From: a virus
Direction: 5' to 3' (one strand)
IMG/VR virus record: IMGVR_UViG_3300024519_000003
Location: 1 to 44,081 of that record
DNA length: 44,081 bases
The notes under the pieces are model-generated. The model was not told where the DNA came from and ran no database searches. It saw nothing but the letters and a program-made list of their open reading frames with translations. Below, piece after piece: positions 1,740 through 38,195 of the stretch; the stretch's first letter is position 1, and every line of letters starts with the position of its first letter. The position numbers were made by a program, and so were the translations under genes.

Positions 1740-1826
1740 GAAGCGGTAGTGTAATGGTAACACGTAAGTATTCAACTATCTAACGGTAGGGCTTGTATAC
1801 TTAGGTTCGACTCCTAAGTTGCTTCG
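1740..1826 (+). tRNA. tRNA-like element with abnormal anticodon arm containing UCA
   Basis: Acceptor stem GAAGCGG/TTGCTTC (two G-U pairs), a D-arm GTGT-AATGGTA-ACAC with the GG of the D-loop, and a T-arm TTAGG-TTCGACT-CCTAA are all present, with G at the discriminator position. The central arm is too long: between GTAAGT and GCTTGT lies ATTCAA followed by a 14-base hairpin (CTATC-TAAC-GGTAG). If that hairpin is an insert, the loop reads A-U-UCA-A-G, an anticodon that would decode UGA. It could be a UGA-Gly tRNA, a pseudo-tRNA or a tRNA mimic. No CCA is encoded. Confidence 0.5.
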
Positions 1827-36165: not shown

Positions 36166-36405
36166 TTATTTACTAGCCTTTTTGATTTTTATGAATTTAT
36201 CAAATGCTTGTTTGAAATCTCATCATACACGCTGTGACAGTATTCATAGAGCCATCCAAACTTTACCATGAGTTTCTATTAAATCATTTGATACTTCAAC
36301 TATATCTTTGTTTGTAGTTCAAAAATCTAGTATAAAATCTTTGAGGCTGGTAACATCTTTCATTGTTTCTTGATCTATGTGTCTTTTTTTTAATGAATTA
36401 AGCAT
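36166..36405 (-). CDS. Small early helical protein
   Basis: 79 aa, helical. NDLIETHGKVWMALGILSQRVGG with TGA glycines, basic C-terminus. Overlaps the next upstream gene. No family recognised. Confidence 0.7.
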
Positions 36406-36850
36406 TATTAGGATATGTAAGATATAAATATTCACAAACTATTTTGCGCATTAAGTCGACATACTTTTTATCAAAGGTTCATTGTTCATTGAACTGAATA
36501 GGTATCCAGTTTTCAGGCAGAGGGATTTGAAACTTCTTTCTCAGCGCTTTTAGTAAGAGATATTCAGTCAATTTAACCTCCTTAATTTTTTCATACTCAC
36601 CCATTATATGTAAAGCATCTCACCTAACACTTTCAGGTAGCGATACGATTAAATCGTAAATCTCATTAGACGGTATTGGTCAATACGATGATATATTTGT
36701 AACATTTAATCTTGTTCAAGATACTGTCACGAACTTATTAGTTTCTAGCAAAGCGTCTACTAATTTAGCTTTATCTGCTTCAAATATAAATATTTGTTTA
36801 TCATAAGTCTTAAGCATAAATAGTTGTTTAAACTCTTTAATTGCCGTCAT
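36398..36850 (-). CDS. Early protein, unknown (replication operon)
   Basis: 150 aa, helical. VRGDALHIMGEYEKIKEVKLTEYLLLKALRKKFQ then a Trp-containing loop and a final Cys-containing helix. Its ATG shares a base with the stop of the replisome organiser, so it probably works with it (a loader-like partner would be a guess). Confidence 0.7.
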
Positions 36851-37584
36851 TATATATTTATTTTAGAAACTGAAAGATTCTTTTTAGGGTTTTTAACTTC
36901 TCAGTACATCTGGTTAGCAACTTGTTGCAACGACGCTAAGTCGTAATAGATCTTCTTAGGTGAAGATATCTTTCTAATATCGTACTTACTCTTAGATATC
37001 AGTGCTAGTAATCCTGATAGATAATCATCCCGCTTCCATTCTCAGGACGCAATCTTATCTAATTTGTTAATTTTGTTTATGAGATGTTTAGCATATTGAC
37101 GTTGTTCTTTCTTAGTTCAATCTACTATTCAGCCATTTACTCATTTAATTAAATCTAAACACAAATTCACATCCTCGTTTCAATAGACTTTAGTCTCTTT
37201 ATCTTTAGATAAAGTTATTTCTTTCTTTTCATTATCAGTAACAGTATCAGTTACATTAACAGTATCAGTTACAGCTAGATTTGCTAGATTTTCTTTAGCA
37301 ATTTTAGCACTTGCTAGCTTTTGCTTAGTTTTGCTTGATTTTGCTAGTCATCATTTCTTTCCAGCTATCTTTCTTTTTTCCAATACTTCTTCTCGTTTGC
37401 TGTTATTATCATCTATCTGTTTCTTTATTTTAGACCAGATAAACTTAATTGGTCATATATCTCACACCTCTATTCAATTGTAGTAATTCATTATTGTCTG
37501 GAAAAATAGTCATTTCTCTTCTAAATTCATTTCAGTAGTGTAGTCTATCCAATCAGCATAGACTATAAAAGTTTTCTTTGCCAT
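36850..37584 (-). CDS. Replisome organiser-like protein (DUF6291 / DnaD-like)
   Basis: 244 aa. Residues 1-85 (KKTFIVYADWIDYTTEMNLEEKG, FQTIMNYYNG, KFIWSKIKKQIDDNNSKREE, AGKKGGLAKSS) match the N-terminal phage replication-initiator domain family (DUF6291-like). A Thr/Val-Asp repeat linker (VTDTVNVTDTVTD) leads to a helical C-terminal domain. Probably binds the phage origin and recruits host helicase. First gene of the leftward block, behind a structured leader. Confidence 0.8.
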
Positions 37585-37591
37585 CAAAAAA

Positions 37592-37682
37592 ATACATATA
37601 ATAAAAAACTAGAGGACCTAAGCCGCCAAGCCAAGTATCCCCTAGTTCTTTATTATATGCATTAGAATAGGTGGCGGCTTAG
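37592..37682 (-). promoter_or_regulatory. Pseudoknotted leader / attenuator of the replication operon
   Basis: A 25-base stem (37592-37616 with 37638-37662) closes a 21-base loop. Its three non-Watson-Crick positions are G-U in the leftward RNA but A-C mismatches on the other strand, so the leftward transcript is the functional one. Loop bases 37618-37628 pair perfectly over 11 bp with 37672-37682, forming an H-type pseudoknot or alternative fold. The stem ends in a T-run just before the replication-gene ATG, so it can act as a terminator or block initiation. Confidence 0.75.
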
Positions 37683-37879
37683 ATTTAAACTTGATTGACG
37701 TTTCGATCTACTGCCATCCTATACAAAGAATCGTATCTTTCAATACTAATTCAATAAAACGAGTTTACATTTTTACATTTTGTTTTCAAGTATTTTTATG
37801 TTTATTCGATAACTTACGGTTTGCATTGATATTATCTATTAAGTCGGTGATAATGCTTTGAAAACGTAGTGATGCAACC

Positions 37880-37905
37880 AACAAGTCCTTCGGGGTTGTT
37901 TTTTT
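37880..37905 (+). terminator. Terminator-like hairpin 1 in control region
   Basis: AACAA(G)TCC-TTCG-GGGTTGTT stem with a UUCG-type tetraloop, followed by seven T. Strong rightward terminator for which no upstream rightward gene exists, implying a small RNA. Confidence 0.8.
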
Positions 37906-37978
37906 GTTTGACTTCACTATAACAATAATATCATTGGAATACACAACCGAGCACATAAGATTTCAAATGTAAGATGAT

Positions 37979-38001
37979 CAGAGCTACGTCCTCTGGTTTT
38001 T
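37979..38001 (+). terminator. Weak terminator-like hairpin 2
   Basis: CAGAG-CTACGTC-CTCTG followed by GTTTTTC. Short stem, moderately convincing. Confidence 0.45.
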
Positions 38002-38066
38002 CTTTCCCTTGAAAACAATACTAACTTTCTTATCTTATTATTAGGTTTATGCAAAACCGTCCTTAA

Positions 38067-38092
38067 AAGACCTGTTCGACCAGGTCTTTTTT
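38067..38092 (+). terminator. Terminator-like hairpin 3
   Basis: Eight-pair AAGACCTG-TTCGAC-CAGGTCTT followed by six T. Strong rightward terminator, again without an upstream ORF. Confidence 0.8.
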
Positions 38093-38133
38093 CTTGAAAT
38101 AAATGTATTTTTCTATATTGTTCTAATACCAAT

Positions 38134-38195
38134 ATTCAGCGGAGATTAAAATGCGAGCTATAGTAGTGCATTAATCTTGACGGCTGAATTTTTTT
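38134..38195 (+). terminator. Long terminator-like hairpin 4
   Basis: ATTCAGC/GCTGAAT outer stem, inner AGATT/AATCT and AATGC/GCATT helices, then seven T. Longer than a simple terminator. It could be a small structured RNA that ends in its own terminator. Confidence 0.65.

Follow-up and report, generated by a model that had tools for sequence, protein, structure and literature searches.

The window analysed here is the whole stretch of virus DNA in IMG/VR record IMGVR_UViG_3300024519_000003 (44,081 nt, positions 1-44081). UGA encodes glycine in this phage, as in code 25 (Gracilibacteria/Absconditabacteria). The Walker A motif of the terminase, GGARGGGKT, appears only when TGA is read as G, table-11 ORFs of the window are broken, and the terminase of a close relative (L003) contains 20 TGA codons. 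The host of the virus is a candidate-phylum bacterium. Structural genes run leftward up to ~37.6 kb, followed by a divergent non-coding region of 700 nt and then by a rightward gene set. A tRNA-like gene at 1740-1826 (+) scores 34.5 bits against RF00005 and has an insertion of ~15-17 nt in its anticodon arm; it was not called by ARAGORN. Three terminator-like hairpins at 37880-38190 (+) in the divergent region (~37880-37904, 38063-38095 and 38133-38190) are perhaps small rightward RNAs.

The leftward gene beside this region (Table 1) is open only when TGA is read and contains 12 TGA codons. Its product has a DUF6291 match (5.7e-14) and, at low significance, matches to primosomal PHROGs (E 0.013-0.015), so that its identity as a replisome organiser, proposed in an earlier sequence-only reading, is plausible but not proven. 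The product is 37% identical to that of L094:11368-11997. No close relatives were found with this protein in viral_contigs, phages or genome_contigs.

Upstream of the gene, at 37591-37682 (-), lies an element consisting of a 27-bp stem, a 19-nt loop and, 8 nt upstream of the stem, an 11-nt perfect complement of the loop. A repeat search located the arms at 37591-37616 and 37638-37663 (26 nt, of which 88% are complementary when read as + strand DNA) and, at 37618-37628 and 37672-37682, an inverted repeat of 11 nt without mismatch. The sequence-only reading had placed the element at 37592-37682, which is correct within one base, and the perfect 11-bp pairing that it described between the loop and sequence upstream of the stem was recovered. 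It had also described a 25-bp stem with three G-U pairs on the leftward strand only. The stem and the strand of the G-U pairs stand; the counts do not, since we found 27 bp on the - strand, made up of 23 Watson-Crick and 4 G-U pairs with no A-C. Each A-C mismatch of the stem on the + strand turns into a G-U on the - strand. The T-run and gene start that it reported downstream are present as two U-tracts and the ATG. The - strand folds at -44.9 kcal/mol, compared with a shuffle mean of -21.4 (z = -7.6, equalled by 0 of 200 shuffles), and the + strand gives z = -5.4. By shuffling, the chance of an 11-nt loop complement within 50 nt upstream is ~1e-4 for the window alone.

Table 1. Positions of the leader features and of the downstream gene in the window
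Feature	Position	Strand	Remarks
Candidate leader promoter TTGAAA-16-TAGGAT	37716..37743	-	weak, 9/12 consensus bases
a' segment UCAAGU	37689..37694	-	pairs with 5' part of loop: 5 Watson-Crick, 6 with one G-U; two-part detector
Spacer UUAAAU between a' and b'	37683..37688	-	UUAAAU/UUAAA also in L094 and L034; UAAAU in L164
b' segment CUAAGCCGCCA	37672..37682	-	11/11 complementary to 3' part of loop; shuffle p 1e-4
Putative terminator hairpin, 5' arm	37637..37663	-	27-bp stem
19-nt loop ACUUGGCUUGGCGGCUUAG, halves A and B	37618..37636	-	folding and two-part detector
Hairpin 3' arm: apical GC-rich part UCCUCUAG, then U6 tract	37591..37617	-
U6 tract, terminator-like	37603..37608	-	directly after apical stem, inside 3' arm; direct reading
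Second U7 tract	37586..37592	-	between hairpin and ATG; direct reading
Controlled gene: DUF6291 protein, putative replisome organiser	36850..37584	-	code 25; ATG at 37584

The apical stem UAGGGGA/UCCUCUA followed by U6 gives the window the GC-rich stem and U-tract before a gene that an attenuator calls for, and the same arrangement was found in L117, L164, L210, L211, L212, L214 and L034. The loop can pair at 11 of 11 positions with single-stranded sequence outside the stem, as in a pseudoknot. The a' segment is short, its main support being its position and the spacer common to L094 and L034.

At 37985-38000 (+) a rightward terminator-like arm resembles the 3' arm of the element at 14 of 16 positions and might base-pair in trans with the 5' arm; we judged this likeness to be due to chance.

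Relatives with the same architecture

About 10 other phages or Patescibacteria contigs have the same architecture upstream of replication-initiation or helicase-loader genes: L094, L117, L164, L210, L211, L212, L214, L065 and L034, together with L097, in which the gap is longer. Their sequences have almost nothing in common, and the members cannot be aligned by sequence. Loops and tails differ between all phages with the pairing retained, the exception being the near-identical pair L117/L119. The sequence-only reading had named compensatory changes in relatives as its own test, and the outcome was positive: in each relative, a changed loop comes with a matching change of the upstream segment. 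In 8 of 10 loci the gene downstream of the element is a PHROG helicase loader or replication initiator, and the distance from stem to ATG is 1-15 nt in most members.

The leader of L094, a contig of a Gracilibacteria-class genome reached via a code-25 EF-Tu pattern, reads GCTAAACGA-TTAAAT-TAAGTCGC, followed by a 24-bp stem, the loop TCGTTTAGCGACTTA, a U-tract and the ATG. From the window to L094 the stem changes from AAG[C]CGC/GCG[G]CTT to AAG[T]CGC/GCG[A]CTT. L164, L210, L211, L212 and L214 were found by protein search first and their leaders inspected afterwards; all carry the element. The organisers of L117, L164, L210, L211 and L212 have a C-terminal domain in common (INPTLNWGNKT...YAPVATTPYQMKEKLAQFKIYF), L214 being more distant, and their N-terminal domains differ, belonging to several DnaD-like or initiator families. 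We take the C-terminal domain to be a modular helicase-loader part.

The element is not general to DnaD-type helicase-loader genes, since it was absent from ~40 other IMG/VR phages with such loaders, taken via proteins 24-48% identical to the reference. The DUF6291 genes of L095 and L096 lack it, and L215 has a plain terminator-like hairpin only. The exact 11-nt repeat pattern was not found in viral_contigs, as expected for an element whose sequence turns over. L003, a terminase relative (95% identical), ends before the element.

Several further hairpins were observed. L097:1881-1946 (-), which equals L154:14255-14320, is a similar hairpin at the DUF6291 gene of a Patescibacteria MAG (UBA3291); L097 has a separate terminator before this gene and two tRNA genes close by. 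No U-tract is present in L028, whose gene belongs to no clear family. Related hairpins precede probable scaffold genes of the late operon at L045:6154-6232 (+) and L155:6487-6568 (-), with loop complements of 13 and 11 nt, respectively. Terminators overlap the long stem at these two loci, which suggests that the stem could be an antiterminator there. In G007 (joined L114-L116), several hairpins at 36277-36352 (-) are built from a repeated TTGGGGTGC/GCACCCCAA unit.

Loop complements and strand bias

A detector run over 1.39 Mb in 86 related phage records gave 141 strong hairpins. After partner shuffling, 0.5 loop-upstream complements of at least 9 nt were expected and 7 were observed; at least 10 nt were reached by 5, compared with 0.1 expected, counts that include a few near-duplicate records such as L117/L119. 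With a stricter two-part detector on the same 1.39 Mb, the window was the top match in the real order, with L117/L119, L094, L034 and L065 also on top. Each of the top loci is directly upstream of a helicase loader or putative replisome organiser gene. Only these top matches are meaningful, because a control with reversed order (swap) gave about as many weak matches (35 and 36 for the swap/real comparison). Two of the strong swap matches, L028 and L045, are themselves elements.

Over the seven loci picked by protein homology (L164, L210, L211, L212, L214, L094 and L097), the combined shuffle p was ~1e-13, a value whose true counterpart is less extreme, as the choice at each gene fell on the nearby hairpin with the best complement. 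Self tail-loop pairs match at 7/7 in all 14 of 14 members, and only 2 of 182 non-self combinations reach 7; this comparison is a description and not an independent test, because members were chosen with self matches of at least 7. On the coding strand, the stems contain 34 G-U pairs and 6 A-C under symmetric scoring (p = 4e-6), with the homology-selected members weighing most because detector-found members were partly selected for G-U. We read this excess as RNA-level, strand-specific selection. That the element exists as a conserved RNA element is, on this comparative evidence, close to certain.

Folding of the leader and a model for attenuation

The window's best promoter match is at chance level (p = 0.40). 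Promoters in relatives are better: those of L065, L210 and L211 match 11 of 12 consensus bases with 17-nt spacing and that of L117 matches 10 of 12, and in all four the distance from the end of the promoter to the first complementary base is 9-22 nt. Weaker sites in L164 and L028 lie 2 and 6 nt before this base. With promoters so placed in relatives, the leader RNA likely begins with the complementary tail itself.

When prefixes without the 3' arm were folded, the tail-loop helix was the best structure in 12 of 14 members, including L212 and L214; no such helix formed in L211 and L097. Upon extension of the 3' arm base by base, the hairpin took over once its GC-rich apical part was complete. 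A U-tract is mapped in 11 loci, and in 7 of these (window, L034, L117, L164, L210, L212 and L214) the predicted switch falls at most 3 nt from it, the balance expected of an attenuator in such a model; in L094, L211 and L097 it comes well before the tract. In the computed prefix folds, the two competing pairings are thus about equally stable where the decision falls. By nested folding of the window, the finished hairpin (-55.7 kcal/mol) is far more stable than the tail-loop helix (-24.8 kcal/mol), and antitermination or read-through would therefore be only kinetic or factor-assisted.

The sequence-only reading had called the element a pseudoknotted attenuator that switches between a terminator stem and a pseudoknot. 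A leftward-strand, attenuator-like RNA element before a replication gene is retained from this. The proposed switch is not, since the loop helix uses no bases of the stem arms and the two pairings are not exclusive base by base. The exclusion appears to be steric: in nearly all members a linker of 0-17 nt stands against a stem of 17-31 bp (8 nt and 27 bp in the window, 0 nt in L214, 2-3 nt in L117, L155, L045 and L212), so that the full helices could hardly coexist. A full pseudoknot is consequently doubtful. More probably, the structure that alternates with the terminator is a plain helix of 5' tail and loop, made while the 3' arm has yet to be transcribed. Six of the nine two-part members have the tail order a'-b' facing the loop order A-B, in which one antiparallel cis helix cannot use both segments at once; the ordinary antiparallel order is found in L210, L211 and L028.

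We lean, if only slightly, towards attenuation of transcription in cis, by the leader of the phage replication-initiation operon. RNA polymerase would start upstream, at a site judged from the promoters of relatives, and make a 5' tail with one or two segments whose sequence is complementary to the loop made later. The 5' arm and loop would be made next, and before the 3' arm exists the tail would pair with the loop as an antiterminator. With the emergence of the GC-rich apical 3' arm the terminator hairpin would become more stable, in the computed folds of 7 members at about the time that polymerase enters the U-tract. Whether transcription ends there or continues into the downstream gene would be settled by a kinetic race. 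Early replication could be tuned by whatever favours or removes the tail-loop helix, such as another leader RNA, a protein or the speed of elongation. The full hairpin would lie within ribosome reach of the ATG, and translation may be hindered too.

Other readings of the element were weighed. An ordinary terminator hairpin with a loop complement due to chance in one phage is hardly credible. Terminator-like hairpins are indeed common and a' in the window is only 5-6 nt; against this stand the shuffle probability in the window alone, the ~10 further loci with the combined p over those found by homology, and the excess of complements of at least 9 nt among the 141 hairpins. Chance complementarity is refuted unless the comparative set is wrong. 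The repeats might instead act in the DNA as an origin, a cruciform or a protein-binding site, for which the position in a divergent non-coding region by a replication gene would be suitable, inverted repeats being DNA features as well. The excess of G-U over A-C on the coding strand, the constant orientation to the downstream ATG, the U-tracts and the promoters that place the tail at the RNA 5' end make this very improbable. A real H-type pseudoknot, with apical stem and loop helix formed and the basal AU stem open, could serve as a protein-binding or translational operator, for example if the replication protein regulates its own synthesis. Roughly estimated from lengths, up to ~15-19 apical bp could coexist with the loop helix in this form, the ATG is close to the stem, and gene 32 of phage T4 is autoregulated via a leader pseudoknot. 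We nevertheless hold it to be improbable, given the shortest linkers (in L214 the tail abuts the stem) and the lack of any conserved loop or stem sequence for a common protein to read.

The direct a'-b'/A-B order leaves room for a trans-acting RNA in immunity or copy control, a reading that we regard as rather unlikely. The terminated leader would itself be a small RNA, whose loop, presented on a long stem, would pair with the 5' tail of new transcripts; with the tail blocked from its own loop, termination would be promoted, and each phage would recognise only its own kind. Loop and tail diverge quickly but jointly, like specificity determinants, the stems of most members exceed what a terminator needs, and the tail order would fit the clamping of another molecule's formed hairpin better. 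A precedent is the CI RNA of satellite phage P4, whose pairing with seqA and seqC shuts off the replication genes of P4 by premature termination (PMC4825925). However, the window shows no sign of lysogeny, of an integrase or of a stable small RNA, and the complementarity needs no more than cis pairing to be explained. The equivalent of seqC is also missing, as no loop complement of at least 7 nt was found within 300 nt downstream in replication-gene members except L097 (7 nt).

Comparison with known systems

No Rfam family (Rfam 15 covariance models, gathering score) matched the element, in agreement with the earlier statement that no known riboswitch was recognised, and a search of the window region to E 10 gave no match to C4 (RF01695). 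Nothing describing such an element in these phages came up in an open literature search of partial coverage. Attenuation in the leader of a replication gene is a known kind of control; the architecture is not known from described systems. In the plasmid attenuators of pT181 repC and pIP501 repR, alternative pairing in the leader of a replication initiator decides read-through, as proposed here. Those are switched by a counter-transcribed antisense RNA, whereas here the leader's own 5' tail would pair with the terminator loop. In the IncB/IncI repZ leader pseudoknot, a hairpin loop and a distant leader segment control the replication gene. The likeness is in loop-leader pairing before such a gene; the repZ partner lies downstream and activates translation, while here the partner lies upstream, next to the probable RNA 5' end. 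C4 antisense RNA of phages P1/P7 has short unpaired segments complementary to its own transcript, a feature in common with the element, which in contrast is a single long hairpin.

Premature termination caused by P4 CI RNA (PMC4825925, refs 45-47 therein) is similar in the replication-operon leader, in an RNA segment complementary to the leader and in the premature termination suggested for our element. CI acts in trans after processing and has targets on either side of it (seqA-seqB-seqC), whereas here a putative intrinsic terminator carries the loop. The IsrK leader of prophage Gifsy-1 ends at a Rho-independent terminator, has self-complementary segments that form alternative structures, and controls an antiterminator gene by long-range pairing with downstream orf45 (PMC4825925); it resembles the element as a terminated leader with alternative structures and lacks the loop/5'-tail architecture.

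Since unrelated-looking copies of the same architecture precede replication genes of other such viruses, the element is probably an RNA on/off switch for virus replication that had not been described before. The leader RNA seems to belong to a class not yet described, in which architecture is conserved and sequence is not, and sequence- and family-based searches therefore miss it. Its place is where replication is decided in phages of candidate-phylum bacteria, a setting in which hardly any gene regulation is known. A widespread RNA self-recognition among Patescibacteria phages, in which each leader yields a terminated hairpin RNA whose loop recognises only its own 5' tail and thereby sets replication timing and superinfection immunity groups, is a speculative and unlikely extension. 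The design, a 5' tail against a terminator loop, is simple and testable, and it may possibly be an RNA immunity system.
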